Source: an uncultured Endomicrobiia bacterium (GTDB lineage: Bacteria > Elusimicrobiota > Endomicrobiia > DTEH01). From it: a stretch of DNA of 37,164 nt. The notes under the pieces are model-generated. The model did not search any database. It saw only the letters and a list, made by a program, of their open reading frames with translations, and was not told the origin of the DNA. A program made the position numbers and the translations under genes. Positions within the stretch are counted from its first letter, which is position 1; every line of letters begins with the position of its first letter. Shown in pieces: positions 4,700-37,164 of this stretch. Location: the NCBI GenBank assembly GCA_938074745.1, contig CALJEJ010000062.1:1-37164 (forward strand), written 5' to 3'.

Positions 4700-4702
4700 T
4701 AT

Positions 4703-7272: not shown

Positions 7273-7282
7273 ACTTCATTTT

Positions 7283-9163: not shown

Positions 9164-9173
9164 ATTATAAGCT

Positions 9174-17400: not shown

Positions 17401-18347
17401 GGATAAATGTTTACAAAAATTTTGTCTTCAGACAATGCTATTGATGTATTATCTGTTGCAACATTACTTAACCGTGGAGAAACCCATACAATTGTACCAT
17501 TGTTTGTGTTCACAGCATAAACTTTCCCATCCATATCGCCTGAATAATAATATAAGATATTATCTTTCACAATCGCAGTAGTGAAGTTTAAACAACTTAA
17601 CATTTTTATTTTCCAAAGAATTTCGTTAGTAGAAATTTTGTAACAATACACTGTTCCGTCGTTAGTTGTAAAATATACTTTTCCATCATCTACAGAAGGT
17701 GATGATTGACCAAACATAGACAAAGCAAGTTTGGTTACTAAAGTTCCGTTTATTGCATCAACTATATACAAGAACCCTTCAGGGACACCGTCAATCCTTG
17801 GCCCTGAAACAAATATTACTTTAGGTGAACTTCCTTGAAAAGTTGTAGTGTCTACCACAATTGGTGAAGAACAAGATTTACTTTGTGTATCAAATGTCCA
17901 TACAGGGACAATGTCTTCTTCAGAACCATAAAGTTGTTTGAAACAGTATAACTTTCCGTCACGAGACAAAATATACAAATATTCTCCGTACAAACACGGA
18001 GTAGAATCTACCCAACCAGAAGTAGAATACTGCCATACAACTTCTCCTGAGAACCCGTCTAAAGCCCATACAGAACCGTCCCGTGAACCAAAGTATACTA
18101 TACCATTTTTTACTACTGGAGAACCTATTATTTCACCTTGTAATTCAAACGACCATCCTTGAGGTTGAGGTTTAGGTACAAAAATTTCGTAAATTTTCCC
18201 ACTACGAACACTGTCCATCCTAAACATAGGATATGATGCACAATAAAGGTTGACAAAAAATGTGGTTAACAACCAACAAAATATAAAAATTTTTTTCCAT
18301 ATTTTATACCACATAATTAAAAAACCTCTTTTTGTATGTAAGTTCAT
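14478..18347 (-). CDS. Secreted PQQ-propeller and Fn3 protein with a FlgD/type IX-like C-terminal domain
   Basis: 1,289 residues. Order: signal segment (IWKKIFIFCWLLTTFFVNLYC, about 16-36); PQQ/YncE-like beta-propeller with repeated 'VYFGSRDGSVWALD'-type blades (about 50-425); a short beta domain (about 435-515); five Fn3 domains starting near 519, 626, 729, 847 and 947, each with 'YKIYR/K' and 'YYYxITA' strands; a ZU5-like domain (about 1051-1182); and a C-terminal domain (about 1192-1289) with 'YPSPAKGDTVYFKF', 'VYVYNIAGEIIW' and 'IATGMYVYRV', matching FlgD-like/type IX sorting domains. It is probably exported and anchored at the surface. The giant gene ends 6 bp upstream. A second start at 18314 (residue 12) is preceded by AAAGAGG at 10 nt and may be the real one, giving a cleaner signal peptide. 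Confidence 0.85.
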   Translation of the reverse strand: MNLHTKRGFLIMWYKIWKKIFIFCWLLTTFFVNLYCASYPMFRMDSVRSGKIYEIFVPKPQPQGWSFELQGEIIGSPVVKNGIVYFGSRDGSVWALDGFSGEVVWQYSTSGWVDSTPCLYGEYLYILSRDGKLYCFKQLYGSEEDIVPVWTFDTQSKSCSSPIVVDTTTFQGSSPKVIFVSGPRIDGVPEGFLYIVDAINGTLVTKLALSMFGQSSPSVDDGKVYFTTNDGTVYCYKISTNEILWKIKMLSCLNFTTAIVKDNILYYYSGDMDGKVYAVNTNNGTIVWVSPRLSNVATDNTSIALSEDKIFVNIYPTQVWETVPNSGIFYSSQSVVCINKTNGNIIWKKDFLVTKPPKFSYGITSPPTVTNNVVCFGTYNGELYVLTISTGGIVAKYEFSSPIVCSPAVSNGWVYFATVDNKFYGIKAEKSLAIKNPDVTEIVINQTPIVVTSEGFDNEMYEVQYSSDTTKWITISSGTLSSGTTTVTIWNTGHLYDGKYYLKFVLPQNNTNFAMNKLVIDNSPFPPTNITAMYYANLKTLLCWTKSLDDGGGNNDVVSYKIYRATDTGNNFSVISTVTRSVTYYIDTVPSSDTTYYYKITAVDKHSESIDSNIAKIYFAQVFPKPSPPRNLTGVYTPVKDDGYITLSWESSIDESTSAGKVVKYEIYKSSNDVSQYKIIYTEQTVGRSSYTYVDTSIVIGVTYYYFVTSVNEYDVRSDSSNIVSVWTFSPKPLPPRNLTAIDFPDDTGGKIILSWEASLSEYLSGNDKVVEYKIYKSSQQQSFWLLYTENIVGKSSYTFYDIECPVGTTFYYYVVAVNGYNFDSDPSEIVSAYSIINTTVTDTTPPQAPTNLECFDTPNDTGKSITLKWTKSLDDGQGANNVIRYKIYRSTTGLYFEYHSFVTAGTTFYKDTVEQDYTTYYYYITALGMNMLESKMSNIAFAYSEPDGIPLAPTNLVVFDTPNDDGKSLTLVWNKSGDDDDGDNDVMFYKIYKGLTQDTIQYYTQVSRGVTIYVDMNCVVDTLYYYYITAVDSDGFESMPSNIVSGYPVFDGIVVTKSSTTVLRYEKDGRYAELKIEPGSVDVPVQIKISKPQVYDTSYPKDTKPTGLVYEFAPQQEIKFKKPVSIKISYLESDIKGLNEKFLRLYWYDDTVSQWRLLNNSTVDTENNFVEAKVLHLSLYRVLEYSPTTEDIFKPEYVYTYPSPAKGDTVYFKFIIYQPAKVKVYVYNIAGEIIWCSEEFVYKQEDVGKAFSIPWNIEKIATGMYVYRVEGVNENKTQRVIKKMVVIH

Positions 18348-18353
18348 ATATAA

Positions 18354-21300
18354 CTATTCCTGTAATACCTCAATTTTACCGTCGTCACTGCCAATTATTA
18401 ACCTACCATTTGTAAAATTATACTGTAAATTAGCGTTTATCTTCCCACCAGTTAATACAGGATAACCTGATTTTATCTGTTTTGTATCTCTGTGGATACA
18501 ATACACAACTCCTTCTTCTGTGCCAAAATATATATAAGGTTCGTTCCACACATATACAGAAGATTTTACTGCTGAGTTTGTTATATATGACCATACAACA
18601 CTTCCCGTCTGAGCATTTATTTTATGAACACCATTGTCACAACTTAGATATAAATATTTATTTCCGTTTTCCAAAGTTAATACTAAATTATTTATTCCAC
18701 TGCCAATATTTACATCAGACCAGTTTGCTGGTATACTGCTTAAATTCAACCCGTATCGGCAATACAAAGTTCCGTTTTCCGTACCCCAGTAGATATTTAA
18801 TGTATTTAATGCATTATTATAAAATCCTGCATCATATTCTATCCGTGTAGTAACTGCAGCAGCTATATTCGTAGAAGTTAAAATACTTCCATCTTGAATG
18901 TTCAACCTGTAGATATACCCGTTGCCAGTACCCCACCAAAGTGACGCTTCGCCTGTGTTAAACCCTTCATCAATTGCTGGCTGTTTTATTATACTACCGG
19001 AAACCTGTGGTACAGGCGACCATAAATCTCCGCCTGTAGCAGTACTTATTTTGTAAACATACCCGTCTATTGTACCAGCATAAATTTTTGCAGGTGGTTC
19101 GTAATAATATGCAACAACTTCGCTTGTAATTTCTGATGACAAATTCCGTGACCACACATTTTGTGTTAAATCAGACAACAAATTTTTGTATATAGTTCCG
19201 TTCTTTGTTCCAAAATACAAATATCCAGTTTCTCCAGTCCAATAATCGCTAAAAATTGACGATATTACGGACCCGTTTGCTGTAAACGAACTTTGTAGAA
19301 CACCTGAAGAATTAAGTTTCATTATTACATTATCCTCACGACAGACAATGACACTTCCGTCCCAGAATTGTTGTATCTGGTTAATCTTTGTTTCTTTACC
19401 AATATTATAAGGCCATGAAGTACCCGACGGTGCACTCTTTGGACGGACAATTGTAAAAGTAGAAGTTTCAACAGTATCACCTATAACATATGGTTGTTCA
19501 ACTGAAGAATTTGTTTCAACCCATCGTGTATCTTTTCCTTCTATAAGTTGTACTTTGAAACTGTTTGGTGAAACTTCTGTAGCATAAGAAGAAATTTTTA
19601 CTATAACAAAATATGTAGTAGCTTGTTGTGGCAAAATTTCAGAACTTGTTTGTGTATAAACTTCTTGTCCACCGTTGCTGTCAAGGTTAAATTCTGAACT
19701 ATAGATTTGTGTTAAGTAAAATTTGTTATCTATGTTATAATAGTATTTGTTATCGTTATTTTCATCTCGGACAATTGATATTTCTGAAACTAAATTTTTA
19801 AGTTGTTCTGTTGTCAACGGTGTACCGTTACTGTCAGTAAATTTTATATAAACTTTGTTAAGTGCGATATTGTTTGACCCTGAAGACGAGTTGTTTTTCA
19901 ATGTAACTTTTAATAACGGGAAATATTTGTTTTCATTCGCATATGTATAAGTATACGATGAAACTTCAATACTATGCAAAGCAGCGTCGTAAGTTACCGA
20001 CGAGATAACAATTTGTGCTGCCAGTTTTTCTTCTTGTTCAGTATTTAACACAATTTTATAAACAGTACCACTGCTTAAACTGTATCCGTCAACATCTGAA
20101 AGTTCTACACCAATATGTATTGTAGTTTGTGTAACTAAAGCAGAGGAAATGTCTATTCCAAAATCTGCCAACCTGAACTGGTGTGGAGAATAGTTATCAG
20201 GTTCACCACCTGTACGTATAAACCATAATGTATTGTTATACCCTGAAGAATAATTTGTTGAAAGTTGAACTTCAAACTTAAACCTTCTTGGTAAAACTGT
20301 ATTATTTTGTGGATAATACACTGTGTTAGAACCTAAACTTGGCTGTATATTACGCATACCATAAGATTTTTCTTTTACAACGAAATCTAAATTATCTTTA
20401 TCCGTATCTCCACCGTCAGGAGTACGACTTAACGAATTCGTTGCAGCAACACCACCTTGTTGTGCATCAGTATAAGATACAAGTTGTGCTTGTTCGTTAC
20501 GGTAGACATAATTTGTAGAAAGTTGATATGTTATTCTATCTATTACTCTACCAGATGTGGTTTCTAAAACCACGAAATCGCTTGTTGTATTAAGCCCGTT
20601 TGTACCGAATATATCATAGAACCTGAACCCATCGTTGTCAATTGAAGAAAAGTCTACTATTGCAAAACTTCTTGGATAAATTTTTCTTGTAAACTTAAAA
20701 AGTTTGTTATTTGTATTTCTTAGATACCCGCTGAATGTTATTGTGGAAACATATGATGTGTTAAACAGTTCAATAAACTGTTCGTTAGACGAATAATGTA
20801 CTTCGTTAATTTTTATCTGTGCATACTCTGTGGTATTGTTTTTAAGTCCTTTAGTAGGTGATGGGTCAAATTCAAAATATTGAGCATTTCCGTCGGTTAT
20901 TCGTGAATATGATACATCTTGATAATGTGCAGGATAGACAACTTTGTTTACTTGTAAACCGTTGTTATCCAGTAGCAGAAGTTCGCCTGAAACTGTATTG
21001 TCTAAATTCAAGTTTGAAATTACAACACAACTTGAAGGTAAAATTGACTGTGTTGAAGAACCTGTCCATACAACAGTACCGTTATATTTCAACTGCCAAC
21101 CGTTGAGATTTATTTCCGCAGATAAATTGTTATAAAGTTCAATCCAGTCGTTTCCTTGACTGCCATAGCAATAAATTTCGTTTATCCATATATTCCCTTT
21201 CTGTGGAAGAACACCAACAGTGTTTGACAATTCAGACCAGTTGAAATTCGGGTTTGGCGGAGATAAAACTTTGTCTCTTGTTCTTATACAGAAATAGTAT

Positions 21301-24300
21301 GTAGTGTCAACATTTAGTCCAGTAACAGTGACTGTTTGTATTGTTCCTGGTGGTTGTGGTGTAACAGTGATTTGTAAAGTTGTTGCATTCAGAAAATCAG
21401 ATAATGTAAGTATAGGATATGTAGCAAATTTTATCACATAAAGTTCAACACCGCTGCCAAAATCTTGTGGTGCAGTCCATTGCAAGTTCACGCTGCCGTA
21501 AACAGGACCTGCAAGTGCAGTAAGGTTTGTAATTGCTTGTGGTGGAACTGTATCTTTTAATATCTTGAAAGCATCAACTAAAGTTGTAGTGTTCCCAGCA
21601 ACATCATAACATTTAACTGTTACATAATTTGTTGCTGTTTGTAAAAATTCCCAATGGCCTGTATTAAGTGCCCAGTTTGCAGTGTAATTTAACCGATTAG
21701 GTGTGTAAGTAAATATATTACCTGTGGCGAGTGTTTGTCCTGTTTGGTTTGGTTGTGTATTGATTATATACTGTGCAGTTGAAAGTAAAGAAAGTCCTTG
21801 TTGGTCAGAAAAATCTATGTCAATTATTGCACCTGGATCTGTATTATACCATGTTGTTAACCCGCCAGTGATATTATTTGTGATCACAGGCGGTTGTGTA
21901 TCTTTTTGAACATAGAACGCGTCAGTAAGTGTAACATTGTTCCCTACACCATCAAAAATTTTAAGTGAGATATAAGTTCTACCTGAGACGAGTTGTTCCC
22001 ATGTGGTTGAAGTTAAAGACCAGTCAGTTGTGTAAGAATCTGTATTTAACCCTGTAATTTCGTCAGCCCAGGTTCTATAAACACCTGTACCACCAGAACC
22101 TGTTGCAAGTTGTGTTTGAACTTTTGATAGTTTTGACCCTCCTGTGTCAAAGAAATCTACATTATAAATCCCGTTGTTAGTTGACCGCCAGGTGTCATCC
22201 CCGGGTTGGTTGTTAGAATAAGTTGGTGGTATTACGTCGTGTTTATCAAGTGCGAGCATAAAGAACTCGTAGTTCGGGTTAGAACCTAATGCAGTCAATG
22301 CTGTTCCACCTGCCCAACCTGCACCTGTCCAGTTTATTGTTCTTAAATTGACGGAACCTGCAGCATTTGCATTTGAACCCAAAAGTACCATTTTGTTTGA
22401 ATTTGGGTCAGGGACAAGTTGTAACCATCGCAGGTCAACTGAATTACCGAGATTATATCCTGAATATGTTGTCACTGCTGACCATGAACCTGCAGACCAG
22501 ATTGAATATGATACATACTGTGCTGGTGCTGCGGATAATACGCCGACTGCGAGACATCTACCTGTATCTTTTTCCCAGGCGATATCAATAAGCCGTGGTG
22601 TTGGTGCATCCATGGTTGCTGAGAGTTCAGTCGGTGCTGCCCACGAAGTTCCATCCCAGATTGATACATTCCAGTCGGAATCACCATCAAGAGATGCCAT
22701 GGCTATTCTGTTTGACCCACTTAACCTATCAGCAGACAGTTTTATCCAGTAAGCACCTGTTGTTGCAGCTATATTAGGCCCTGCTGCACCAACTACACTC
22801 CATAAACTTGCCGTTGATGACCACATTGCGTATCTTGTTGATGTCCCTTCACCCCAGAGTATCAAACAATTTCCGCGAGTGTTCTCCCAAGCTAGGTCAA
22901 AACATTGATACACACCAGTATATGCTGAAAGTGTGAGCTGCCGATTGTTAACCCAGGAAGAACCGTTCCATCTATAAGCATACATAACTCTGTTGGAATC
23001 AAGTGTGACGAGCATTATTTCATCAGTTCCCGGTCGAGGTTCTAAACGAACCCATCTTACGAATCCCGTACCACCGATGTTAAGTTGTGTTGCTGGTGTA
23101 ACCCACGATGCTGCTGTTGATGACCAGATTCTATACCAAACTTGTCCTGTTAAACTACCGCTGCTGAATACTACAATTGCCCTACCTGAGTTTTGTTCAT
23201 AAGCGATATCTACACATCTATATACGGCATCTGCGGATGCTATCGTTGTTAAAAGTTCAGGTATTGACCAAGTTCCAGATATACCATCAAAACGTTGAAT
23301 GTAAATTCCACCATTTGAAGATATTGTTGCAAGTAGTTTTTCATTTCTTAAAACATTGCATGCTCTTAGTACTGACCAATAAATTGTTGATGCAGTATTG
23401 TTAGCATTTGAAGGACCTGTCCAGCTAGCACCTGCTGAAGTTGTTTTGTAATATTTCGGATATGCGAGTGTTCCTTCTGCATAACATAAAATTCCGTCTG
23501 CAGGACCACGAGGTCGTGCCTGAACTGATACTGTGTTTGAAATCACTGAATAATTGGCACCTGGTGATGCGTCATCGTAAACTTTTATAGCAAAATAATA
23601 TGTTGCACCGGGTTCAGGCATTGAAAGAATTTTTTCTTCAACAGTTCCTGCAGGTGCAGGTATCCAGGATTGAGTATATTCCGATACTGAATCCCATTCA
23701 TTTTCACCAAACGGATATGTTGCATATTTAACAACATAACCACTGGCTTGACCTATGTATTCATCATCACCGACAGCAATCCAGGAAAGTATTAACTCGC
23801 CAGGGTTCAAAGTTTCCGGTGAAGAGCCGGATAAAGTTGTAATTCTTGCCGGAGGCACCCTTGTTGCCCAAGTTGAAGTTGTGGATAGTAAAACAGAATA
23901 GTTGTTTGCCTTATCCTGTGGTAATATACCAATCCAATAAGTTGTTCCTTCAACGAGTCCTGTGACTATTGCTGTTTCTGGTGTAGAAGGATGTTGTGGT
24001 GGTGAGATATAGAATGTTGTTCCGGCTGATAAGAAATCCAATTTACTGGTGAATTCCAATGTTTTGTATTTTACCAAATATGCTTTACATCTGATATTTA
24101 GTGGATCCGCGATTGTATCATCATATGGCGCAGTCCAGTTCAATTGTATTGAACCACCTGTTGAACCCTGTGTTGAGGTTAAATCGGTGATATTATTTGG
24201 TGGTATTGTATCTTTTAGAACGCGGAATACATCTATTTGTGTTACTGTATTATTCAAACCATCGCTACACCATATTGAGACATAATTCGTTCCGGGCTGT

Positions 24301-30300: not shown

Positions 30301-33300
30301 TTTAACTTTTCATCGGTCCAGTCTTGATATATTAAACCGGTTTGGTTAGGACCTGATGTTATTTTTAATTGGAACTTATACAACTTTGAGCCATCGGATG
30401 GGGTGTCAAAGAAATCTACATCATAAGTTGCAACATTTGATGACCGCCAGATTGTGTCATCACCTGGAACATTGTCAACTATTGATGGTAAAGATACATC
30501 TTTGAATATTCTGAATGTATCAACCAATGTTGTTGTAGTACCTGCGATATTCCATACGCGCACACTAACATAATTAGTTCCGCCGTTCTGTAATGCAGGA
30601 AAGTTGACTGACCAGTCCGTTGTATATTCTGCGACATTCAATGGTGGTATACCAATATTAGTCCACGGGATTAAGTTTGTCCCTGTGAATCCCGGACCGG
30701 AATAAACACAATATTGAATAGTGTCCAAATTTGTAGCACCTTGTTTATAGAAATTCACATCATAAGTTTGTGAAGTGTTTATCCAAGTGACTGTTGTCGT
30801 ATCAAACGCAACTTCAATTCTTGGCGAGGTTGTATCTTTTTTAACGAAGAAAGCATTTATGAATGTCGTGGTATTACCTGCAAAATCCACAGCACGAACA
30901 TCTATGTAGTTTATTCCATCATATAACTTAGCAAAATCTATGGCAAAGTTTGTGATGTAGTATGTTGTATTAACCGAGGTAGCAATTGTTGTCCAGTCAA
31001 TTATAACACCGCCTGTTGAAGATTTCGCACGATAGAATAAGTTGTTCAATTTTGAGCACCCGGGAATTCTATCCGGCACGGGGTCGTCATAGAAATCTAT
31101 ATCCCAGATTGTTCCGGGGTTTGATGTGAACCAGCCACGGTCAAAGGTTTCGTTATTAACACACCTCGGTGGTGTTGTATCCTTCAAAACGAAAAATACA
31201 TCAATATATGTTGAGACATTACCTGCTAAATCATACACACGAACCGAGACATAGTTTGTTGTCCCTTCCCATAAAGTATTAAACTGTGAAGCGGTTAATG
31301 CCCATGGTGTTGTATATGATGGTGCATTAATATTTGTGATATGGTCAGTCCACGGTATTATCACGCCTTCATTTGAATTTTCTTCCACAACTGGTGATGT
31401 GGTTATACGGATTTGGAATTTGGATAAATTTGACCCGCCTGTGTCATTGAATTGGACATTATAAGTTGTACCACTTGAATTACGCCATGTGTAATCACCA
31501 TCTTGTAAATCGTTAACTGTTGGCGGGATTACATCTTTTAGGATTTTAAATGCATCAATATAAGTTGAAGTGTTCCCTGCTAAATCTATAACTCTTACAC
31601 TGAAATAATTTGTTCCATTTTGTAACAATTCCCAGTGGCCAAAATTTAATGCCCAGTTGCTTGTATAAGACACCCCGCCGTAACCGGATACTTTATCACT
31701 CCAGCCAATTAATATGTTCCCGCCTTCGTTTGGTAATGTATGGACTTTGTATTGTATTCTATCAATTTTTCCTACAGTTAGATATCCACCGGCAATATCG
31801 TCAAAGAAATCAATATCAATCACACTTCCCGGATCGGAATTATACCAGTTAACCAATCCGCCAATTATGTTGTTTGTTATTCTTGGAGTGATTGTATCAA
31901 TAGTTATATCCCAGGTTGAACTCCATACCGAGAAATTGTTAGCTGAATCTTTTGCACGCACTTTCCAGTAATAAACTCCGGATGGCATAGCAGGAGGTGT
32001 ATAGGTTGAAGTAGTAGGTGAAGCACTATAGTTTATAACACCGAAATATTGGTCTGTTGAGATATATATCTCATAACTTACTGCATCTAATACATCTGAC
32101 CAATCAAATGTTGGGGTTTGTAGATTTGTATAAGTTCCTGCTGATGGAGATATTAATACTGGCGTGGAAACTGGTGTTGTGTCAATGATTATAGACCAAG
32201 TTGTTGACCATAACGAATAATTACCTGCGTAATCCTTAGCACGTGTTCTCCACCAATATGTTCCTTCCGACAATATTGTAGTATAACTCGTTGTGGTGGT
32301 AAATGACGATGATATGAATACAGTAAAATATTGTTCGGTTGATATATAAAACTCATATCCTTGTGTTCCCGAATGTGCATCCGTTACTGGATTCCATACA
32401 AATGTTACATTTGTTGTGTTTAGTGCTGTAGTATCTTGTGGTGAGGATAAAGTAGGTGCAGGTGGAGGAATTACGTCTTTTCTTATAAAGAACGCATCAA
32501 CCAAAATTGAAGTATTACCTGCTAAATCATCGGCACGTACAGTGACATAGTTTGTTCCGTTTTGTAGGAGTACCCAGGAAGATGCAGAAATTGACCAATC
32601 AGTTTCGTAATATGTAGCATTTATTAAAAGTGTATTTATTGGTGTCCAGTTAATCAAGAGTGTACCTGTTTGTCCTGTTGATGACCATACACGGTAATAA
32701 CATGTTGCCAGTTTTGAAAGTTCATCATAGAAGTCAACATTATAAGTTGTCCCGCTTGAAGAACGCCAAGTGTAATCACCAACGACATTGTTCACAATTT
32801 TAGGCAGTGTTGTGTCAATTATAACTGAGTAAGTATCGCTCCAACTGGACCAGTTGCCAGCGATATCTTTTGCTCTGACACGCCAATAATGTATACCTTC
32901 AAACCGTAGTAATGAAGTTTCAGAAGTTACAGAAGTCACAGTAGTTACAGAAGTTGCGAAGTTAATATCTGTAGAGATTACAAGTTGATAAAGATCAATC
33001 CCTGATGTAGTATCTACCGAATCGTCCCAGTCGTAGGTGATTGTTAGATAATTAGTTGCTGAATTATTTTTTGGTGAAACCAGCAAAGGTGTGCTTGGCG
33101 GTGTTGTGTCCTTTTTCACATAAAACACATTTTCAGCAACAGTAGTATTCCCTGCACCATCAAAGATTTTTAGATGAATATAATTTATTCCTTCTTTTAA
33201 TTCGTTCCAAACTGTATCATTCAATGTCCATAAAGTAGAATAAGAATTTGTATTTGCAGGGAAGATAAGGTTATCAGTCCAGTCTAAGATTGTCAAAGAA

Positions 33301-36300
33301 GTTAAAGCAGGGCCAGTAGTTGCTTTTATTTGAAACTTACTTAAATAAGAACCGCCACTGTCTTGGAAAGTTATATTATAACTTCCGGTATTGGAACTTC
33401 GCCATATATCATCACCAGTTTGGTTATCAACATAACTCGGTGGAATAATGTCATGTTTATCCAACACCAAACTTGCGCATTCTGCGGATATAATTGAAAC
33501 ATCTGTCTCATGAATTTTTTTACCAGTCCAGTTTGACCCAGTCCAGTTTATAGTAGTTAAATCCGCTGCCTGGTCAATTATATAACAAATCATTTTGTTC
33601 TGGTTCGGGTCAGAGACAAGACCAAGCCAGTTTATATCACCTAAAAGTCCCAAAGTTCCCGTAGGTGTTTTAGGTGCTGTTAACGGTGTCGCTGCAGTAC
33701 CTGTTATAGGGTTATGCCAGCCGAGTGTTTCTGACCATGCAATAAAAGATATTTCTCTTGCATTTAAATCACCTGCAACTATTATGCATCTTCCAGAATC
33801 TTTCTCCCAGGCAACATCAGTACATCTTGCAGCAGCTGTTTCCATTGTATCATCTTCAGTAGGAAGTGTTCCCCAAGAAGTGCCGTTCCAGATACATACA
33901 TTCCAGTCAACAGCACTGTCAATTGTAGTCATTGCTATATAGTTTGAATTCATTCTCGGGTCAGAAGAAAGTCTTACCCACTGTAAAGTTGCTGCAATAT
34001 TAGGACCTGCAGCACGAGATACAACCCACCTAGATGCTGTAGAAGACCATAAAGAATACATTGTAGTAGTTCCTTCACCCCAGAAAACCATACATCGTTG
34101 ATTTTGTCTCTCCCAGGCTAAATCAAAACATTCTCGTGTTGCGATTGCTGCGTTGAGTGTAGGAACATAGGTTGAAATTGATAAAAACTGGTTCGTATCA
34201 CCATCCCAGAGTGCACAGAAGATATACCTGTTAGCGTCAAGTGTTGCAAGCATTATCTGGTTGGAATTAGGTCTTGGCTCAAGCCGTACCCAGTATACTG
34301 CACCTGAAGTGCCACTTAAGGTTAGGTTAGACGGACCTGAAACCCATCCAGCAGCAGTTGATGACCATACACGGTATTGAACCTGTCCTGCAGTGCCGTT
34401 GTAATAAACAACTAAACACCGTCCTGAATTTTGTTCATATGCTAAATCACAATTACGGACTGCATCTATCATATTGTATTGTGTTGTATTTAATTGTCCT
34501 ATATATTCCCAGGTTGTTCCATTGTAGCGTTGTAAATGTACGTTTCCTAATAGTTCAGGAGTTGTATCACCATCGCCAGTTTTTAACAAAACAAGTTTTT
34601 CATTGCGTAACACTGGACACGCAACAGATCTAACAAACTCAATTCTGTGCCCTGGTGGGAGAGGGAAAACCGGTGGCAGGTTTTGTGCAGCGGACCAGTC
34701 TGGAGGTTCCCAACGAGATGTTTTTGGTATATTTGAAGTTCCTGCACCCCAGAGAATATTTCCACAAGCAGCACCTGGCGGTGCTGGGATTGAAGCGGAA
34801 GAGTTTGAAGTTGAAAAATTCCCTGCCTTGTCCCAAGTTCTTACCATAAACCAGTAAGTAGCATTTTGTGTTAACCCGTTGAAGATATATTCTTGTAATT
34901 GTCCAACTTCTAAAGGTATAGGTCCGTCAACTTCGCCAATGTAACCAACTGTATCACTCCAACCTGTCGGTGCTGTTTCTTTCTGCCAGTATCTTATTTT
35001 GTAATATCCGGAATAACTGTCACCTTCAATATAAGTTCCGGACAAATTACCGACAAGTCCGTTATCACCCGGTGCAAGCCAGGTGAGTTTTATCTGACCA
35101 ACATAATCACCAGGTTGTGCATTCAATGTCGTTATAGCATAAGGAGCAACAGTATCTTCTTTTGCTTTTGCATAATTTGAAATTTTAAGAACTGAAATAT
35201 TACCTGCAGAATCTCGTGATTTTATAGCAACATAGTACCATCTTGATTGTGATAGCCCTGTTATAACTTTTGATTCAGTACTTCCTGGTGCCTGAGGTGT
35301 CCATGACTGAACAAAAGTTCTTACATTAGGGTCAGTATCAAAGTTTGTTTCTGTGATTTCAAAAGTTGCAAATTTTACAATATAACTGCTTAACCCACTG
35401 CCTGGTTGTGGGTCATAGGGTGCTGTCCAAGTTAAGTTTATTTCACCTTCGTTACTTCCTGTCTGCGCAGTTAGATCAGTAATCTGTAGAGGTGCCTGTG
35501 TATCTTTTTTAACATAGAAAACATTTGCAGTGCTTATGTTTCCTGCAAAATCGTAACTTCGGACTGTTACATAGTTATATCCTTGCTGTAATGCTGGAAA
35601 ATCTATACTCCAATTGGTTTCGTAAGAAGACGAGTTCAAGTTTGTGAATATAGGTGTCCATACAACAAGTTGTGTCCCTGACTGATACCCAGTTGAATAA
35701 ACTGTATATTCAGCTTTGTCAAGCAGGGATGAATAATCATAGAAATCTATATCATAATTCCTTCCACTATTATACCAGGTTTCGTCATCAGGTTCGTTAT
35801 CAACGATATTTGGTGATGTTGTGTCTTTTCTAACGTAGAAGACATCAATATAAGTCGAAGTATTTCCGACGGCATCAATACATCTAACCGATACATAATT
35901 TACACCTTCAAGCATGTTATTAAAAGTTTCCGGTTTTAATTGCCAATCGGCTGTATATTTTGCAACTTGTGATGATACAACTGTTCGCCAGTCGTCAAGC
36001 AGTGTTCCGGTCATGTTCGGTTGTGTATAGACAATTGTTTGGAAATACGAACAACCGGATAATAAATCTTCAAAATCTACATCGTAATATCCACTATTCG
36101 TATTTCGCCAGACGGTATCACCGGGTTGGTTATCATAAATTGTTGGTGGTAAGACATCTTTAAGTATTCTAAACGCATCAATATATGTTGTAGTATTACC
36201 TGCGAGATCTTGACCACGGACTGAGACATAGTTTGTCCCGTTTTGTAACAAGTCAAAATTCACTGCCCAATCGGTAATGTAATAAGTTGTGCCGATGTTA

Positions 36301-37164
36301 ATAGCTACTGTTGTCCATGGGATTAAGTTTGTTCCGGTTAGATTGCTTGAACTCCAGACACAGTATTCAAATTTGTCAAGTTTATCGGTTCTATTGGCTG
36401 AGATTTTGTCAAACAGGTCAACATTGTAAGTTCGTGGTGTATTTCTCCAATTCAAATCGCCACCGGCTTCGTAATTCACGAACTCAGGCGGTGTTGTGTC
36501 TTTTAGGATATAAAATGCGTAATATGTGGATATATTTCCGGCTATATCTGTTAGTCGCACAAAGACGAAGTTCGTTGTGTATTCTACAAGTGATGCAAAA
36601 TCTACTGACCAGTTTGTTGTATAAGTTGGTGAAGATATACCGGTTGCGATATTTTGCCAATCTATGATAATGTTTGGTGGACTAAAGTCAGCAACTACAG
36701 AAGATTTTTTTACACAATATTCTGCTTTTGACAACCACGAAAGACCATCGTAAAAATCTACATCGTACCCACTGGCACGTGCTGTGTTACGCCATGTATC
36801 ATCACCACCGGATGAAAATTCGTTATAAGAAACAATTGGTGGTTCTGTGTCTTTCTTTACATAAAATACATTGTTGACAGTTGTTGTCCTACCTGCAATA
36901 TCCCAGACACGAACCGAGACATAGTTCCAGGAAGATTTGCAAGCATCAAAATCTATATTCCAGTTGACGTTATAAGATGTTACATTTGTTGATTGGAATA
37001 TGTAAGTCCAATCTTTTAACACGCTATCCATTTCCGATGGTCCGGAACGGATTATGTATTGTGCCGAATCTAACCCGGAGCCAGAATCATGGAAATAAAC
37101 TGCATAGCCATCTGGTTTGGGTGCGTTCCTCCATATATCATCACCGGGCTGCTGGTCGTTAACA
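18354..37164 (-). CDS. Giant multidomain repeat protein (at least 6,269 residues), 5' end outside the window
   Basis: One uninterrupted frame covers 18.8 kb. The ATG at 37031 is internal: the 44 codons between it and the window edge are open and encode the start of a repeat unit (VNDQQPGDDIWRN). By hand parsing, N to C: 27 Ig-like type A units of about 113 residues, eight type B units of about 97 residues, five Fn3 domains, two related predicted beta-propellers, two lamin-tail domains, an unrecognised region of about 300 residues, and a final PQQ-like propeller. Composition is Thr/Ser/Asn/Asp-rich with few Cys, like extracellular fibres or adhesins. No membrane anchor or sorting domain closes the C-terminus (...KIEVLQE), so export must rely on the unseen N-terminus or on the downstream proteins. 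A surface adhesin, fibre or matrix role is inference. Confidence 0.92.
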   Translation of the reverse strand, partial: VNDQQPGDDIWRNAPKPDGYAVYFHDSGSGLDSAQYIIRSGPSEMDSVLKDWTYIFQSTNVTSYNVNWNIDFDACKSSWNYVSVRVWDIAGRTTTVNNVFYVKKDTEPPIVSYNEFSSGGDDTWRNTARASGYDVDFYDGLSWLSKAEYCVKKSSVVADFSPPNIIIDWQNIATGISSPTYTTNWSVDFASLVEYTTNFVFVRLTDIAGNISTYYAFYILKDTTPPEFVNYEAGGDLNWRNTPRTYNVDLFDKISANRTDKLDKFEYCVWSSSNLTGTNLIPWTTVAINIGTTYYITDWAVNFDLLQNGTNYVSVRGQDLAGNTTTYIDAFRILKDVLPPTIYDNQPGDTVWRNTNSGYYDVDFEDLLSGCSYFQTIVYTQPNMTGTLLDDWRTVVSSQVAKYTADWQLKPETFNNMLEGVNYVSVRCIDAVGNTSTYIDVFYVRKDTTSPNIVDNEPDDETWYNSGRNYDIDFYDYSSLLDKAEYTVYSTGYQSGTQLVVWTPIFTNLNSSSYETNWSIDFPALQQGYNYVTVRSYDFAGNISTANVFYVKKDTQAPLQITDLTAQTGSNEGEINLTWTAPYDPQPGSGLSSYIVKFATFEITETNFDTDPNVRTFVQSWTPQAPGSTESKVITGLSQSRWYYVAIKSRDSAGNISVLKISNYAKAKEDTVAPYAITTLNAQPGDYVGQIKLTWLAPGDNGLVGNLSGTYIEGDSYSGYYKIRYWQKETAPTGWSDTVGYIGEVDGPIPLEVGQLQEYIFNGLTQNATYWFMVRTWDKAGNFSTSNSSASIPAPPGAACGNILWGAGTSNIPKTSRWEPPDWSAAQNLPPVFPLPPGHRIEFVRSVACPVLRNEKLVLLKTGDGDTTPELLGNVHLQRYNGTTWEYIGQLNTTQYNMIDAVRNCDLAYEQNSGRCLVVYYNGTAGQVQYRVWSSTAAGWVSGPSNLTLSGTSGAVYWVRLEPRPNSNQIMLATLDANRYIFCALWDGDTNQFLSISTYVPTLNAAIATRECFDLAWERQNQRCMVFWGEGTTTMYSLWSSTASRWVVSRAAGPNIAATLQWVRLSSDPRMNSNYIAMTTIDSAVDWNVCIWNGTSWGTLPTEDDTMETAAARCTDVAWEKDSGRCIIVAGDLNAREISFIAWSETLGWHNPITGTAATPLTAPKTPTGTLGLLGDINWLGLVSDPNQNKMICYIIDQAADLTTINWTGSNWTGKKIHETDVSIISAECASLVLDKHDIIPPSYVDNQTGDDIWRSSNTGSYNITFQDSGGSYLSKFQIKATTGPALTSLTILDWTDNLIFPANTNSYSTLWTLNDTVWNELKEGINYIHLKIFDGAGNTTVAENVFYVKKDTTPPSTPLLVSPKNNSATNYLTITYDWDDSVDTTSGIDLYQLVISTDINFATSVTTVTSVTSETSLLRFEGIHYWRVRAKDIAGNWSSWSDTYSVIIDTTLPKIVNNVVGDYTWRSSSGTTYNVDFYDELSKLATCYYRVWSSTGQTGTLLINWTPINTLLINATYYETDWSISASSWVLLQNGTNYVTVRADDLAGNTSILVDAFFIRKDVIPPPAPTLSSPQDTTALNTTNVTFVWNPVTDAHSGTQGYEFYISTEQYFTVFISSSFTTTTSYTTILSEGTYWWRTRAKDYAGNYSLWSTTWSIIIDTTPVSTPVLISPSAGTYTNLQTPTFDWSDVLDAVSYEIYISTDQYFGVINYSASPTTSTYTPPAMPSGVYYWKVRAKDSANNFSVWSSTWDITIDTITPRITNNIIGGLVNWYNSDPGSVIDIDFFDDIAGGYLTVGKIDRIQYKVHTLPNEGGNILIGWSDKVSGYGGVSYTSNWALNFGHWELLQNGTNYFSVRVIDLAGNTSTYIDAFKILKDVIPPTVNDLQDGDYTWRNSSGTTYNVQFNDTGGSNLSKFQIRITTSPVVEENSNEGVIIPWTDHITNINAPSYTTPWALTASQFNTLWEGTTNYVSVRVYDLAGNVSTYIDVFFVLKDTTPPRCVNNETFDRGWFTSNPGTIWDIDFYDDPVPDRIPGCSKLNNLFYRAKSSTGGVIIDWTTIATSVNTTYYITNFAIDFAKLYDGINYIDVRAVDFAGNTTTFINAFFVKKDTTSPRIEVAFDTTTVTWINTSQTYDVNFYKQGATNLDTIQYCVYSGPGFTGTNLIPWTNIGIPPLNVAEYTTDWSVNFPALQNGGTNYVSVRVWNIAGTTTTLVDTFRIFKDVSLPSIVDNVPGDDTIWRSSNVATYDVDFFDTPSDGSKLYKFQLKITSGPNQTGLIYQDWTDEKLNLGTTFYTVNWSISYQTFQNMREGYNYVSARVFDYAGNVYELSDIFFVLKDTTPPTIDDQQEGDNVWRSANTGVYNVNFSDTGGSKLSRFEITASTSPSLFTDGVGELIPWTIVQSSINSDSFTTNWSIPSSVWDALQSWTTNYIFVRVFDNSVPANSSTSINSVFYVLKDTVPPIIIDNETVDRGWMKNNPGAIWDIDFEEQIQQHCSKLHTAQWTSFTGPNQTGTQVVGWINIFSNLGTIYYNTNWDIGETTFTLLSSGTNYISVRVWDIAGSTTTLIDAFIVKKDTYGPTIIDNQPDSNWLNSDPGAVWDVDFKDDLSKLASAYYIIYSGPQLSGTQLTNWTTIFAGINQTLYDTNWPLAAGHWELLPEGTSYITVRCYDNLLNLTTGYDIFCIRKDTTPPYCVDNQENIYATSQSELNNIDVDFYDTGGSKLYSIQYRVAPSPGNPSEYIIDWTNIVPPPVGTTYYITPWSIPFVSLPNQATSYVSVRAQDFANNTTTFVDAFSIYKEAVGPSIIDNQPGDDTWRNTLTGVYFNIDFQSNSGQNLDRFEIKVTTTSDGTGTEYTTWSVIVSNINSISYTLDWQIQPDSYFFDNWPQGKNYVHVRVFDLVPTSATLYNAFYVLKDTEPPLIVDLQEGDTTWQRTSGKTYNVDFQDYGIGVSTIWYKVSSDLEGTATLLDWTTIYAGIPVSSYTDDWSVDFERLQEWATNYITVKCFDGLGYSSTSVSVFYILKDTTPPTIPSLDSPQDNALLNTKLVNFQWFSSTDKRSGVEDYTLQISTLADFSVVYYSSITQSLNHSITCLEGTNWWRVRAKDFAGNYSLWSSTRTFLIDTSSPIVVDNQLGYDLWLSSDPGAIWDIDFKDLGSGLTTIEYRICSLPGNSDENVLINWTTIYAGSPISSYTTNWSIAFGHWELIPQGTSYVSVRCFDRVGLSTTVPDVFYIRKDTSPPTISGTDSTGTTDTTWRNSSKLYDLNFHDPHSLLKDAWYCVSTNTFATPPLVIDWTPIFTNINQPDYLTDWAPSFALLIEGVTNYVSVRVRDNLLQMATYYDRFFILKDITKPTITNNLPAGFDSTWRNTDPGAIYDIDFRDLGGSRLNKFQTKAMRGELLSGATVWDWTDNILNINSTYYITNWSIDFASLWEGKNYISVKVLDNATNSEILVDAFFVLKDTTPPTITKNTWDENAWYYNPPIVDVDFNDAISGCGVKGFDIQVSTLETGSPILIPWTTVLTTNTYSYTENWQIPQSVFDSMLSGTTNYCWLRVYDFATNTTTSAGYVFIVKKDTAGVGIVDNEPPGEDLIWRSTPTERAYDVDFYSFGMTPLQAVEYTAYSGPNMTGSQAFPWTTIPGFIPGTTYYETNWYIGATEFEQMFDGTTNYISVRCWNMAGATRTLVDVFWVKKDTTPPEIPTLVSPLNGSATNQLNVNFSWSKATDLASGTTVYQLIVSTDPNFGVVSYSTITPLTSVVSTSLAESTYYWKIRAKDLANNYSDWSITWAVQVDTTPPQTPSLTSPLNELTTNYTNQIFNWTSVTDLGPAGLSHYRFEISTVSNFATLWYSSSVPTTSLTYSLTNSLTYYWRVIAIDRAANSSYSGSFVLVIDTITPPIPSQVKPTDGLTTNYNLINFEWSGQDLGPAGVKEYELQISTTETFTSVYYSTITKLATYATYFVENVYWWRVRTYDRAGNYSSWFSTRQFIVDISSPQQTSNLSPANDTRTNSTTITFSWTSVSDIGPAGLKEYILELSTDTVFTVINYSSVTQLTSATLTVSENRYWWRVKTLDRAGNYSVSGSSEITVDITPPYVVDNQPGDEIWRSVGTTVYDIDFFDTPSVNGSGLDYAQYIVYSSTNPDGTAAGVALTQWQTIFNWSLPTRTTYYIDNWDLSPVFEQLQQGYNFVFVRAYDMAGNTTNYATYVFHVKKDTAAPNIINNEPTIPPWDNSARYHDVDFTDPGIGVKIASYTVYSQPGLAGIQLIPWTTIFWLATPQNTYDTNWQINFELLQPGTNYVSIWCSDGLNNTVTQIDVFRVLKDTIPPNNITDLTSTQGSTGGSIQLNWTAPYDDTIADPLNIRCKAYLVKYKTLEFTSKLDFLSAGTTFYISPPQHPSTPETAIVTGLVEGTTYWIGILPQDKANNYSVLLSTTSTWATRVPPARITTLSGSSPETLNPGELILSWIAVGDDEYIGQASGYVVKYATYPFGENEWDSVSEYTQSWIPAPAGTVEEKILSMPEPGATYYFAIKVYDDASPGANYSVISNTVSVQARPRGPADGILCYAEGTLAYPKYYKTTSAGASWTGPSNANNTASTIYWSVLRACNVLRNEKLLATISSNGGIYIQRFDGISGTWSIPELLTTIASADAVYRCVDIAYEQNSGRAIVVFSSGSLTGQVWYRIWSSTAASWVTPATQLNIGGTGFVRWVRLEPRPGTDEIMLVTLDSNRVMYAYRWNGSSWVNNRQLTLSAYTGVYQCFDLAWENTRGNCLILWGEGTSTRYAMWSSTASLWSVVGAAGPNIAATTGAYWIKLSADRLSGSNRIAMASLDGDSDWNVSIWDGTSWAAPTELSATMDAPTPRLIDIAWEKDTGRCLAVGVLSAAPAQYVSYSIWSAGSWSAVTTYSGYNLGNSVDLRWLQLVPDPNSNKMVLLGSNANAAGSVNLRTINWTGAGWAGGTALTALGSNPNYEFFMLALDKHDVIPPTYSNNQPGDDTWRSTNNGIYNVDFFDTGGSKLSKVQTQLATGSGGTGVYRTWADEITGLNTDSYTTDWSLTSTTWEQLVSGRTYISLKIFDGVGNNVTLTDAFYVQKDTQPPVITNNITGGLTTWYNTDPGAIIDIDFSDQQGLSLLSTAQYIINTQPNQTGQTLATGNIFTYTPNRLNYTANWALNTGHWEFLQTATNYVTVKCYDVAGNTTTLVDAFKILKDTVPPQAITNLTALAGPVYGSVNLQWTAPQDFGSGVELYVIKFATYPILTLSDFLNATTLQITVTPQPPGTIQTVTVTGLNVDTTYYFCIRTRDKVLSPPNPNFNWSELSNTVGVLPQKGNIWINEIYCYGSQGNDWIELYNNLSAEINLNGWQLKYNGTVVWTGSSTQSILPSSCVVISNLNLDNTVSGELLLLDNNGLQVNKVVYPAHYQDVSYSRITDGNAQYFEFDPSPTKGLKNNTTEYAQIKINEVHYSSNEQFIELFNTSYVSTITFSGYLRNTNNKLFKFTRKIYPRSFAIVDFSSIDNDGFRFYDIFGTNGLNTTSDFVVLETTSGRVIDRITYQLSTNYVYRNEQAQLVSYTDAQQGGVAATNSLSRTPDGGDTDKDNLDFVVKEKSYGMRNIQPSLGSNTVYYPQNNTVLPRRFKFEVQLSTNYSSGYNNTLWFIRTGGEPDNYSPHQFRLADFGIDISSALVTQTTIHIGVELSDVDGYSLSSGTVYKIVLNTEQEEKLAAQIVISSVTYDAALHSIEVSSYTYTYANENKYFPLLKVTLKNNSSSGSNNIALNKVYIKFTDSNGTPLTTEQLKNLVSEISIVRDENNDNKYYYNIDNKFYLTQIYSSEFNLDSNGGQEVYTQTSSEILPQQATTYFVIVKISSYATEVSPNSFKVQLIEGKDTRWVETNSSVEQPYVIGDTVETSTFTIVRPKSAPSGTSWPYNIGKETKINQIQQFWDGSVIVCREDNVIMKLNSSGVLQSSFTANGSVISSIFSDYWTGETGYLYFGTKNGTIYKNLLSDLTQNVWSRNLSSEITSEVVAYYYEPPAKIYAGTIDGYVYKISTATGGDLWSPVPQVSGSIIKQPAIDEGFNTGEASLWWGTGNGYIYRLNIQDGSILTSTNIAAAVTTRIEYDAGFYNNALNTLNIYWGTENGTLYCRYGLNLSSIPANWSDVNIGSGINNLVLTLENGNKYLYLSCDNGVHKINAQTGSVVWSYITNSAVKSSVYVWNEPYIYFGTEEGVVYCIHRDTKQIKSGYPVLTGGKINANLQYNFTNGRLIIGSDDGKIEVLQE
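18357..19435 (-). other. C-terminal PQQ-like beta-propeller of the giant protein
   Basis: About 360 residues with repeated blades: 'YLYFGTKNGTIYK', 'KIYAGTIDGYVYKI', 'LWWGTGNGYIYRL', 'IYWGTENGTLY', 'YIYFGTEEGVVYCI' and 'LIIGSDDGKIEVL'. It resembles the N-terminal propeller of the next protein (14478-18347), which starts 6 bp further on. Confidence 0.8.
19436..20349 (-). other. Unrecognised beta-rich region of the giant protein
   Basis: About 305 residues between the lamin-tail domains and the terminal propeller. It has 'HIGVELSDVDGYSL', 'FPLLKVTLKN', 'NKVYIKFTDSNGTPLT' and 'TYFVIVKISSYA', which look like two or more Ig-type sandwiches. No family is recognised. Confidence 0.5.
20350..21203 (-). 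other. Two lamin-tail (LTD) domains of the giant protein
   Basis: LTD 1 (about 20835-21203) has 'IWINEIYCYG', 'DWIELYN', 'INLNGWQLKY' and 'VVISN'. LTD 2 (about 20350-20832) has 'IKINEVHYSS', 'FIELFN', 'FSGYLRN' and 'FAIVDFSS', then 'NSLSRTPDGGDTD'. Lamin-tail domains are common in secreted bacterial proteins as Ig-fold surface modules. Confidence 0.8.
21204..21540 (-). other. Fn3 domain E of the giant protein
   Basis: A single Fn3 domain with 'VNLQWTAPQDFGSG', 'YVIKFATYPI' and 'TTYYFCIRTRD'. It separates the repeat arrays from the lamin-tail domains. Confidence 0.8.
21541..22221 (-). repeat. Type A array V: units 26-27
   Basis: The last two type A units, boundary near 21889. Unit 26 has 'PGDDTWRST', 'YNVDFFDTGGSKLSK' and 'LKIFDGVGNN'; unit 27 has 'NTDPGAIIDIDF' and 'GHWEFLQTATNYVTVK'. 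They are followed by Fn3 E. Confidence 0.83.
22222..23505 (-). other. Predicted beta-propeller domain B of the giant protein
   Basis: About 428 residues, homologous to domain A: 'DIAYEQNSGRAIVV', 'WVRLEPRPGTDEIMLVTLD', 'DLAWENTRGNCLILWGEGT', 'DIAWEKDTGRCLAV' and 'LALDKHDVIPP' line up with A in order. It is noticeably richer in G+C than the flanking genes (27 of 60 at 22501-22560). Confidence 0.65.
23506..24198 (-). other. Fn3 domains C and D of the giant protein
   Basis: Two Fn3 domains with the boundary near 23855. C has 'IQLNWTAPYDD', 'YLVKYKTLEF' and 'TTYWIGILPQDKANNYS'. D has 'LILSWIAVGDDE', 'YVVKYATYPF' and 'TYYFAIKVYDDAS'. Same order as Fn3 A-B before propeller A. Confidence 0.8.
24199..24894 (-). 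repeat. Type A array IV: units 24-25
   Basis: Two type A units with the boundary near 24525. Unit 24 has a longer middle ('SVNGSGLDYAQYIVYSS') and 'NFVFVRAYDMAGNTT'; unit 25 has 'PPWDNSARYHDVDF'. They precede Fn3 C and D. Confidence 0.82.
24895..26076 (-). repeat. Type B units 5-8 of the giant protein
   Basis: Four tandem type B units of 291-300 bp with boundaries near 25779, 25479 and 25188. Units 6-8 share 'DLGPAG' or 'DIGPAGLKEY' in the middle, unlike units 1-5, so these three probably arose from each other. Each ends in 'VDxxxP' or 'IDTITP'. Confidence 0.82.
25567..25602 (-). repeat. 12-bp in-frame tandem repeat in type B unit 6
   Basis: Three imperfect 12-mers (TAAGTTAGTGAG type) encoding 'SLTYSLTNSLTY' immediately before 'YWRV'. 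It occupies the same strand as the short repeats in type B units 1 and 4. Confidence 0.7.
26077..27786 (-). repeat. Type A array III: units 19-23
   Basis: Five consecutive type A units with lower boundaries near 27445, 27108, 26770, 26428 and 26077 (337-351 bp each). Unit 22 is atypical at its start ('NAWYYNPPIVDVDF') and unit 20 has 'YDLNFHD'. The array ends with 'KKDTTPP' into type B unit 5. Confidence 0.85.
27787..28080 (-). repeat. Type B unit 4 of the giant protein
   Basis: A 98-residue unit with 'YTLQISTLADF', 'NWWRVRAKDFAGNYSLWS' and 'IDTSSP'. The strand before 'NWWRVR' is encoded by an 8-bp tandem repeat at 27891-27922. Confidence 0.8.
27891..27922 (-). repeat. 8-bp tandem microsatellite inside the giant gene
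   Basis: Four copies of AGTGATTG; copy 2 differs only in its last base (AGTGATTA). It encodes 'SITQSLNHSIT' just before the 'NWWRVR' strand of type B unit 4. The unit length is not a multiple of three, so gain or loss of one copy would shift the frame of the whole downstream protein. Confidence 0.8.
28081..31885 (-). repeat. Type A array II: units 8-18
   Basis: Eleven consecutive type A units, the longest array in the protein. Lower boundaries read from the PP codons lie near 31522, 31168, 30823, 30486, 30139, 29779, 29427, 29091, 28755, 28407 and 28081, giving unit lengths of 326-364 bp. Units are well diverged from each other, so this is an old array rather than a recent expansion. Units 8, 10, 14 and 15 carry the 'SDPG/NPG...DIDF' variant; units 9, 12 and 13 carry 'G(G)SxL.(K/R)F'. 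Confidence 0.85.
31886..32463 (-). repeat. Type B units 2 and 3 of the giant protein
   Basis: Two tandem 96-97 residue units with 'YEFYISTEQYF' or 'YEIYISTDQYF', followed by 'YWWRTRAKDYAGNYSLWS' and 'YYWKVRAKDSANNFSVWS'. Both end in 'IDTxTP' linkers. Confidence 0.8.
32464..32802 (-). repeat. Type A unit 7 of the giant protein
   Basis: A single type A unit between type B units: 'VGDYTWRSSSGTTYNVDF' at its start and 'NYVTVRADDLAGNTS' near its end, closing with 'RKDVIPP'. Confidence 0.8.
32803..33096 (-). repeat. Type B unit 1 of the giant protein
   Basis: A 98-residue Ig/Fn3-like unit of a known bacterial type: 'LLVSPKNNSATN', 'YQLVISTD', 'HYWRVRAKDIAGNWSSWS' and 'IDTTLP'. It contains a short in-frame tandem repeat, listed separately. 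Confidence 0.8.
32911..32964 (-). repeat. 9-bp in-frame tandem repeat in type B unit 1
   Basis: Six imperfect 9-mers of the form ACAGAAGTT; the four at 32920-32955 are the closest. They encode the V-T-S rich strand 'ATSVTTVTSVTSETS'. Since 9 bp is a multiple of three, copy-number change would keep the frame. Confidence 0.75.
33097..33440 (-). repeat. Type A unit 6 of the giant protein
   Basis: A single type A unit straight after propeller A, with 'TGDDIWRSS', 'NITFQDSGGS', 'YLSKFQI' and 'NYIHLKIFDGAGNTT'. Its counterpart after propeller B is unit 26, which shares the 'GGS.LSK' and 'LKIFDG' variants. Confidence 0.8.
33441..34775 (-). other. Predicted beta-propeller domain A of the giant protein
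   Basis: About 445 residues with an internal period of about 105-110: 'DLAYEQNSGRC', 'DLAWERQNQRC', 'DVAWEKDSGRC' and a final 'LVLDKHD', alternating with 'WVRLEPRPNSNQIMLATLD'-like segments and 'WSSTA' turns. This regular aromatic and beta pattern suggests a propeller. I cannot name a family. It is clearly homologous to domain B at 22222-23505. Confidence 0.65.
34776..35490 (-). other. Fn3 domains A and B of the giant protein
   Basis: Two fibronectin type III domains. The first has 'INLTWTAPYD', 'YIVKFATFEI' and 'WYYVAIKSRDSAGNIS'; the second has 'IKLTWLAPGDNG', 'YYKIRYWQ' and 'YWFMVRTWDKAGNFS'. The boundary between them is near 35140. They precede propeller-like domain A, the same order as Fn3 C-D and propeller B further on. 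Confidence 0.8.
35491..37164 (-). repeat. Type A array I: units 1-5 (unit 1 cut by the window edge)
   Basis: Five consecutive Ig-like units with lower boundaries near 36838, 36487, 36145, 35811 and 35491. Each begins after the linker 'KDTxPP', has 'NxxGDxxWRN' then 'YDVDFxD', a middle 'YxVxS...W(T)xI', and closes with 'NYVSVRxxDxAGN' and 'FxVxKDT'. The pattern 'DxAGN...DTxP' is that of large bacterial Ig-like adhesin repeats; the 'WRN...YDVDF' half may be specific to this protein type. Confidence 0.85.

Follow-up and report, generated by a model that had tools for sequence, protein, structure and literature searches.

Very long open reading frames with a proposed role in adhesion have been described in surveys of uncultivated bacteria. 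The giant proteins of the Omnitrophota are described as showing little conservation, as uncharacterised or as often carrying many transmembrane helices (PMC10066038), and a survey of huge proteins found the Elusimicrobiota to be statistically rich in proteins of more than 5,000 aa (PMC11573180). The gene reported here resembles the subjects of both surveys in its length, its occurrence in uncultivated bacteria and the role proposed for it. An earlier note, made from the DNA alone, had named the Omnitrophota among the lineages with established examples of proteins of this size. Here the lineage is Elusimicrobiota and, in contrast to those giants, the protein belongs to one conserved, colinear family in which architecture and gene neighbours are fixed and which lacks internal membrane helices.

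Partial parallels are also found among better characterized surface proteins. Like SprB (Flavobacterium johnsoniae, T9SS), the product is a giant repetitive surface protein, and the genome that encodes it also codes for PorV-family and SprA-like proteins, but it has no detected sorting domain, a motor part was not matched in a search whose positive control gave no match either, and a RiPP-like cassette is present instead. With the type I-secreted SiiE and RTX adhesins it shares an array of Ig-like repeats, and the Ig modules of SiiE are among its best structural matches, whereas its orthologues carry an N-terminal signal segment and its neighbours are different. An RTX or type I-secreted adhesin was rejected as a candidate on the grounds of these signal segments and of the absence of any RTX family reported by Pfam. 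Finally, both of its propeller modules have the fold of the Photorhabdus PLL/PHL lectins, a fold-level likeness at 10-15% identity; the propellers are here embedded in a giant protein.

The cassette has parallels of its own. Lasso-peptide kinases, which depend on a His-Lys-Asp-Asp motif, phosphorylate the conserved Ser at the C terminus of the peptide; in the case of pseudomycoidin a nucleotidyltransferase-like protein afterwards adds a hexose (PMC9266682). The paeninodin and pseudomycoidin tailoring systems (PadeK, PsmK/PsmN) and the system described here have in common a PqqD-type protein, a Y..P leader, an HprK-like putative kinase with H-K-D-(E) residues, the fourth of which is Glu175 instead of Asp in the present protein, an invariant C-terminal Ser and a nucleotidyltransferase-like protein. 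Here, in contrast, there are a radical SAM/SPASM enzyme, an S26 protease and a tri-Cys core, and neither a lasso cyclase (asparagine-synthetase-like) nor a B2 protease is found among the cassette genes annotated by Pfam and NCBIfam. The radical SAM/SPASM RiPPs (sactipeptides, ranthipeptides and the SynChlorMet cassette) similarly combine a radical SAM/SPASM enzyme, PqqD and a Cys-containing precursor, and the P-loop protein has a weak, ScmC-like match to the SynChlorMet cassette; the present precursor, however, falls in no NCBIfam or Pfam family and is tied to a giant surface protein. A literature search, which did not extend to the main paper on groundwater Elusimicrobia or the primary one on paeninodin, returned no description of the giant family or of its partnership with the cassette, and nothing relevant on Elusimicrobia with PqqD/radical SAM or RiPP systems.

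The giant open reading frame

The window, that is, the whole stretch of DNA analysed, comprises 37,164 bp and is the entire contig C62 of genome G000, a metagenome-assembled genome of 1.52 Mb in 85 contigs and 93.9% complete. Hence, the giant gene runs off the assembly. As the earlier note had read it, a single frame stays open over more than 6,269 residues with its 5' end beyond the window: on the minus strand, 6,269 stop-free codons run from 37163 to a stop at 18354-18356, the earliest ATG of the frame within the window lies at 37031, and complete orthologues of the long type are longer still. At this base composition the probability of such a stop-free run is about 10^-188, and GC content rises from about 30% outside the gene to 38% inside it. 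The features of the window discussed below are the following.

18354-37164, minus strand: giant ORF, C-terminal two thirds, approximately, of a predicted secreted protein of about 8.8-9.3 kaa; 5' end beyond the contig
24207-36845, minus strand: Ig-like array (repeat HMMs; Pfam Big_13/Ig_Rha78A_N/Glucodextran_B)
33438-34781, minus strand: lectin-like beta-propeller, copy 1 (aa 795-1242; AlphaFold2 pTM 0.90; PDB matches to PLL/PHL lectins)
22224-23510, minus strand: lectin-like beta-propeller, copy 2 (aa 4552-4980; second copy of the module)
21270-21530, minus strand: fibronectin type III domain PF00041 (E 1.4e-8)
20934-21203, minus strand: lamin tail domain PF00932 (E 3.6e-17; the better of two reported stretches)
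18360-19500 (approximate), minus strand: C-terminal PQQ/ACSF4-type beta-propeller (PF13570, E 7e-22, best stretch 18843-19421)
14478-18347, minus strand: 1,289-aa protein with PQQ/BamB-like propeller (PF13360, E 4e-34), Fn3-like modules and T9SS type A sorting domain (TIGR04183, 31.0 bits, cut-off 23)
12722-14338, minus strand: PorV/PorQ-family protein, 538 aa (NF033709, 117 bits, cut-off 90), position conserved
11892-12725, minus strand: NTP_transf_5 nucleotidyltransferase-like protein, 277 aa (PF14907, 61 bits, cut-off 31)
11180-11944, plus strand: ABC-2 permease, opposite to the operon
10488-11174, plus strand: ABC transporter ATPase, opposite to the operon
5881-10460, minus strand: polysaccharide polymerase/export genes (Wzy_C-like, Wzz/BY-kinase-like, Wza-like)

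That the giant frame is an assembly artefact or a decayed ORF seems scarcely conceivable. Such a reading would draw on the fact that the contig terminates inside the gene and that the gene is fragmented in several metagenome-assembled genomes. Nonetheless, exact direct repeats in the ORF reach no more than 22 bp, too short to cause a short-read collapse, and DNA self-matches in the last 2.2 kb do not exceed 83% identity and are confined to short stretches. The same stop-free frame recurs in several independently assembled relatives, chunks of the protein keep their order in another family (55/56, see below), and comparison with L085, the closest of the contigs retrieved (82% aa identity), yields a dN/dS of 0.33 with a dS of 0.41 over 4,274 codons; against L086 dN/dS is 0.15, with dS near saturation. 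The integrity of the frame assumed by the earlier note, free of in-frame stop, frameshift or misassembly, is thus supported by indirect means, and from these sequence comparisons a misassembly appears very unlikely. In one relative (G237:C69, joined locus 10203-38471; L160, L179, L180), a stop splits the giant into 6,956 and 2,457 aa, which may be a real break or a sequencing error.

By comparison with G002, about 2,560 residues are missing from the window protein, and about 3,030 by comparison with two overlapping contigs of G003, so that the complete giant of G000 would be expected to span some 8.8-9.3 thousand aa, or 0.95-1 MDa. When the G000 genome was queried with the first 2,296 aa of the G002 protein, only Ig-repeat matches and no second contig piece came up; the 5' end is therefore not recoverable from this assembly.

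Domain architecture

The part of the giant protein encoded in the window is made up of some 40 modules of the Ig-like type, a pair of beta-propellers similar to bacterial lectins, lamin-tail domains and a C-terminal PQQ-type propeller, the last identified by running Pfam over the final 2,000 aa. HMM matches over the whole ORF resolve the Ig-like modules into 29 of about 112 aa and 11 of about 98 aa; the main array is interrupted by Fn3-like modules and by propeller copy 1, and a few further modules flank it. A model of two consecutive modules has a pLDDT of 95, and its PDB matches include the giant adhesin SiiE, the biofilm scaffold RbmA and the HPI S-layer. The lectin-like propeller module, of 430-450 aa, is covered by no Pfam family, and the best PDB matches of copy 1 are the Photorhabdus PLL/PHL lectins (TM, target, 0.65-0.70; a fold-level likeness at 10-15% identity). 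No internal hydrophobic, membrane-like segment occurs in the window part of the protein, and Pfam reports no catalytic domain and no RTX family in it, nor a T9SS sorting domain (Por_Secre_tail) in its last 2,000 aa. The earlier note had taken this mix of Ig-like arrays, Fn3, propellers and lamin tails to indicate an extended, modular, adhesin-like surface protein, and all of these elements are found, with secretion suggested by the orthologues. The giant is hence likely to be a secreted, extended and modular adhesin-like surface fibre.

Orthologues across the Elusimicrobiota

Within the class Endomicrobiia, the C-terminal region of the giant is detected at full strength in 13 of 96 genomes, and in none of the 77 belonging to its largest family (f3), which, judging by how many genomes it has and by their size, we take to be the host-associated Endomicrobiaceae. 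Across the phylum, 52 of 341 genomes carry the gene (E <= 1e-20), in lineages that include the Endomicrobia/Endomicrobiia and the RIFOXYA2 Elusimicrobia. Complete giants of the long type measure 8,832 aa (G002), 9,460 (G005), 10,458 (G038), 10,481 (G094), 9,479 (G265), 9,418 (G245) and 9,178 aa (G214). Shorter forms are present in G024 and many genomes of family f16 (4,161-5,611 aa) and in G331 (2,866 aa). The long type is built of Ig-like modules and the shorter f16 giant of G223 of an Fn3 array (Pfam), the Ig repeat HMM missing the arrays of the shorter f16 proteins, but both types end in lamin-tail and PQQ-type propeller domains. A hydrophobic, signal-peptide-like segment opens most complete orthologues; in those of the long type, (T/K)R(I/V)KTVE(W/Y)NFG or a close variant comes next. 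An export signal is accordingly to be expected on the G000 giant.

The spacing of the propellers is conserved. In seven genomes from five families (G000, G002, G005, G007, G245, G265 and G214), the starts of the two lectin-like propellers are separated by 3,742-3,794 aa, whereas in G038 and G094 they are separated by about 4,400 aa; the distance from copy 2 to the C terminus is constant (1,708-1,774 aa). When the window protein was cut into 56 consecutive chunks and the best match of each was scored on the C-anchored diagonal, 55 of the 56 were in register in G007, which belongs to another family, 51 in G002, 50 in G005, 28 and 27 in G245 and G265, from other parts of the phylum, and 15 in G038. 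Since the matches keep this register, the Ig modules are individually orthologous, and the alignments imply that the array has neither expanded nor contracted between these families, unlike that of many repeat adhesins.

Gene neighbourhood

The gene for the 1,289-aa T9SS-tailed protein starts 6 bp after the giant gene and occupies the same place in complete loci, where a PQQ-propeller/Fn3 protein of 838-1,289 aa with a T9SS tail and a PorV-family protein follow the giant. The NTP_transf_5 gene, third after the giant, keeps its position in the Endomicrobiia and in G265; a profile of its product found no match in the PDB. ABC ATPase- and permease-like genes stand at the same place in G002, G003, G007, G024 and G038, and the Wzy_C/Wzz/Wza-like gene order is repeated downstream in G002, G007 and G024.

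A RiPP-like cassette upstream of the giant

In G001, G002, G003, G005, G024, G038, G093 and G094, and also in families f16, f19 and f27, the start of the giant is preceded by a cassette. Its order in G002, G003, G024, G038 and G094 is HD protein, HprK-like P-loop protein, PqqD, radical SAM/SPASM enzyme, a peptide of about 50 aa and S26 peptidase, and then the giant; a radical SAM and SPASM enzyme, a PqqD-type RRE and a short Cys-containing precursor thus stand side by side. In G005, the giant is preceded by the peptide and the peptidase, but the genes for the three enzymes were not detected at this site. The S26 gene ends about 44 bp before the giant in G002, 33 in G005, 12 in G038 and 7 in G094, short gaps that make it likely that cassette and giant share one transcript. 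The window contains no cassette. In G000 the cassette occupies one end of contig C67 and faces outward, with genes for an ExeA-like ATPase and a 23S-IVP-like protein between it and the contig terminus; in G001 and G003, of the same family as G000, an ExeA-like ATPase likewise stands in front of the giant. For the G000 copy, then, a signal peptide and a link to the cassette would be predicted from its relatives and from two contig ends of the same genome. At L084 15922-16536, the gene for the 23S rRNA-IVP-like protein is succeeded, at the contig end, by low-complexity repeats of the TSETPETIET type, a possible cause of the assembly break.

The precursor and the loci discussed in the next section are located as follows.

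L084 14408-14563 (G000 C67:54407-54559): tri-Cys RiPP-like precursor, about 50 aa
L053 9170-19001, continuing in L054 (G024): S26-giant fusion
L164 (G093): S26-giant fusion
L125 (G095): S26-giant fusion

All 39 distinct precursors share Y..P, an E, LxCxKC, a third Cys 10-12 residues further on and a C-terminal Ser, and the peptide matches no Pfam or NCBIfam model. We take the Y..P element to resemble the leader motif bound by PqqD-type RREs. In an alignment of 20 HprK-like kinases, His131, Lys152, Asp174 and Glu175 are invariant; against the PDB, the profile of this protein yields P-loop matches only. The S26 family displays a GG(S/C)MRP-type nucleophile motif and an invariant HR, and its profile finds SEC11A (E 1e-7); the ETAA that precedes LAC in the precursor would fit signal-peptidase specificity. 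In f1, the family of the window (L084 14619-14960), and in G005, the nucleophile Ser is replaced by Cys (GGCMRP) and the His-Arg pair is kept. In some f16 loci (e.g. L150 3952-6082 and 9488-10033, L146 9219-9782), genes for pilin-like proteins lie upstream, and one for an Rrf2-like regulator separates the radical SAM gene from the giant; these genes were named by eye.

Co-inheritance of cassette and giant

Among the 341 Elusimicrobiota genomes, 54 have the precursor, 52 the giant and 47 both, with 7 having the precursor alone, 5 the giant alone and 282 neither (Fisher p 3e-44, which overstates independence because of shared ancestry among genomes). At the genus level, 25 of 100 genera have the precursor, 25 the giant and 23 both (Fisher p 3e-18, uncorrected for ancestry). 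Both are missing from f3, G008, G021 and G034, and both are present, on different contigs, in G202 and G333. Outside the class, the succession of cassette and giant is found again in ten f16 genomes, in f19 and in f27, other genes standing between the two in G214 (f16). Moreover, an S26 domain opens the frame of the giant itself in G024 (f8) and, in open-ended form, in G095 (f8) and G093 (f11), that is, in two families; in G333 (f29) it opens a frame of 904 aa that is not the giant. Among the discordant genomes, the giant of G001 begins at the edge of a contig, the contigs that carry the precursor in G011 and G229 terminate nearby, and those of G010, G015, G200 and G254 are not complete genomes. 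In G011 and a few f16 genomes the precursor is present and the giant was not detected, with some contigs ending close by. A functional coupling of the giant to the RiPP-like cassette appears, on this evidence, well supported by gene content.

A proposed model and its alternatives

The observations on which a model can be built are computational: the architecture and conservation of the giant, the signal segments of its relatives, synteny, co-inheritance and gene fusion. Taken together, they make it fairly probable that the locus encodes a fixed-length secreted surface adhesin of about 1 MDa that is functionally tied to a modified peptide. Sec would export the giant through its N-terminal signal peptide, a segment seen in the orthologues, and since the Ig array keeps the two lectin-like propellers at fixed positions, the protein would work as an adhesin of fixed length, the putative glycan targets of which may lie in the cell's own capsule or matrix, on neighbouring cells or on substrates. 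With about 70 modules of ~4 nm each, the fibre is estimated to measure roughly 0.3 micrometre. One conserved surface locus would supply the giant, the T9SS-tailed PQQ-propeller protein and the PorV-family protein. In the cassette, the PqqD-type protein would bind the YxKP leader of the precursor, the radical SAM/SPASM enzyme modify the LACGKC...C core, the HprK-like kinase phosphorylate the invariant C-terminal Ser and the S26 protease remove the leader, probably after ETAA. Here we infer glycan binding, enzyme order and peptide chemistry, and we hypothesize that the matured peptide then works for the fibre, its likeliest role being that of an anchor, a cap or a linker to envelope or polysaccharide; the cassette could instead serve capsule export or regulation. 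A more specific version, possible but on balance doubtful, is that of an Elusimicrobiota surface organelle in which a radical-SAM-modified, C-terminally phosphorylated and perhaps phospho-glycosylated RiPP is the dedicated structural partner of a megadalton fibre, for instance its covalent anchor or linker to exopolysaccharide.

Sets of HprK, PqqD and NTP_transf_5 genes adjoin exopolysaccharide loci elsewhere. This, the capsule genes that flank the locus and the pilin-like and Rrf2-like genes interleaved in f16 loci, which imply that the region collects surface and regulatory genes, would be in keeping with a large secreted adhesin of the ordinary kind, encoded in a locus for surface polysaccharide; the neighbouring cassette would then have a separate task (signal, antimicrobial or cofactor) and have only locus and inheritance in common with the giant. 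We consider this reading rather unlikely, given that both elements are kept where they are unlinked and both are missing from f3, G008, G021 and G034, that giant and peptidase form a fusion in two families and that the peptide core and C terminus do not show the variation usual in antimicrobial cores. The PorV-family and T9SS-tailed proteins next to the giant, and a SprA-like ORF of 1,749 aa in G000 (G000:C39:232-3717; homologous to an ORF above the PF14349 cut-off), might also evoke a T9SS-dependent moving adhesin like SprB of Flavobacterium, involved in gliding. The lack of a sorting domain on the giant in the Pfam search and the presence of the SprA-like gene in relatives devoid of the giant make this improbable; GldM was not matched in 16 genomes, in a search in which the positive control likewise gave no match. 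Slightly more improbable still is that the giant serves to prey on other cells or to attack them, a role put forward for the giants of the Omnitrophota. The size of the giant and the capacity that its lectin-like propellers might have to bind the glycans of other cells would suit it, but Pfam reports no catalytic domain, internal membrane segments are lacking and none of the 77 f3 genomes has the gene. The use envisaged by the earlier note is therefore supported as regards a secreted, adhesin-like giant and not supported as regards predation; the association with the cassette lies outside the window and hence escaped it.

Returning to the fixed-length adhesin tied to a modified peptide, the huge proteins of the Elusimicrobiota, so far a matter of statistics, would include one defined, phylum-wide family whose architecture and neighbours are fixed and whose partner can be tested. 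If the cassette does serve the fibre, a conserved orphan RiPP would gain a function, radical SAM peptide chemistry a new use and the building of megadalton surface structures in uncultivated bacteria an experimental handle; in the more specific version above, a RiPP would be a building element of the cell surface and not, as otherwise, a cofactor, a signal or an antibiotic.

Additional observations

A T9SS-type translocon appears to be present in the Endomicrobiia, in members without the giant as well. At the far end of the window (1-5419), the genes are unrelated to the giant: two encode proteins without a Pfam match (1-2460), and these are followed by genes for a GH57 glycoside hydrolase (2462-4699) and a type I 3-dehydroquinase (4703-5419).
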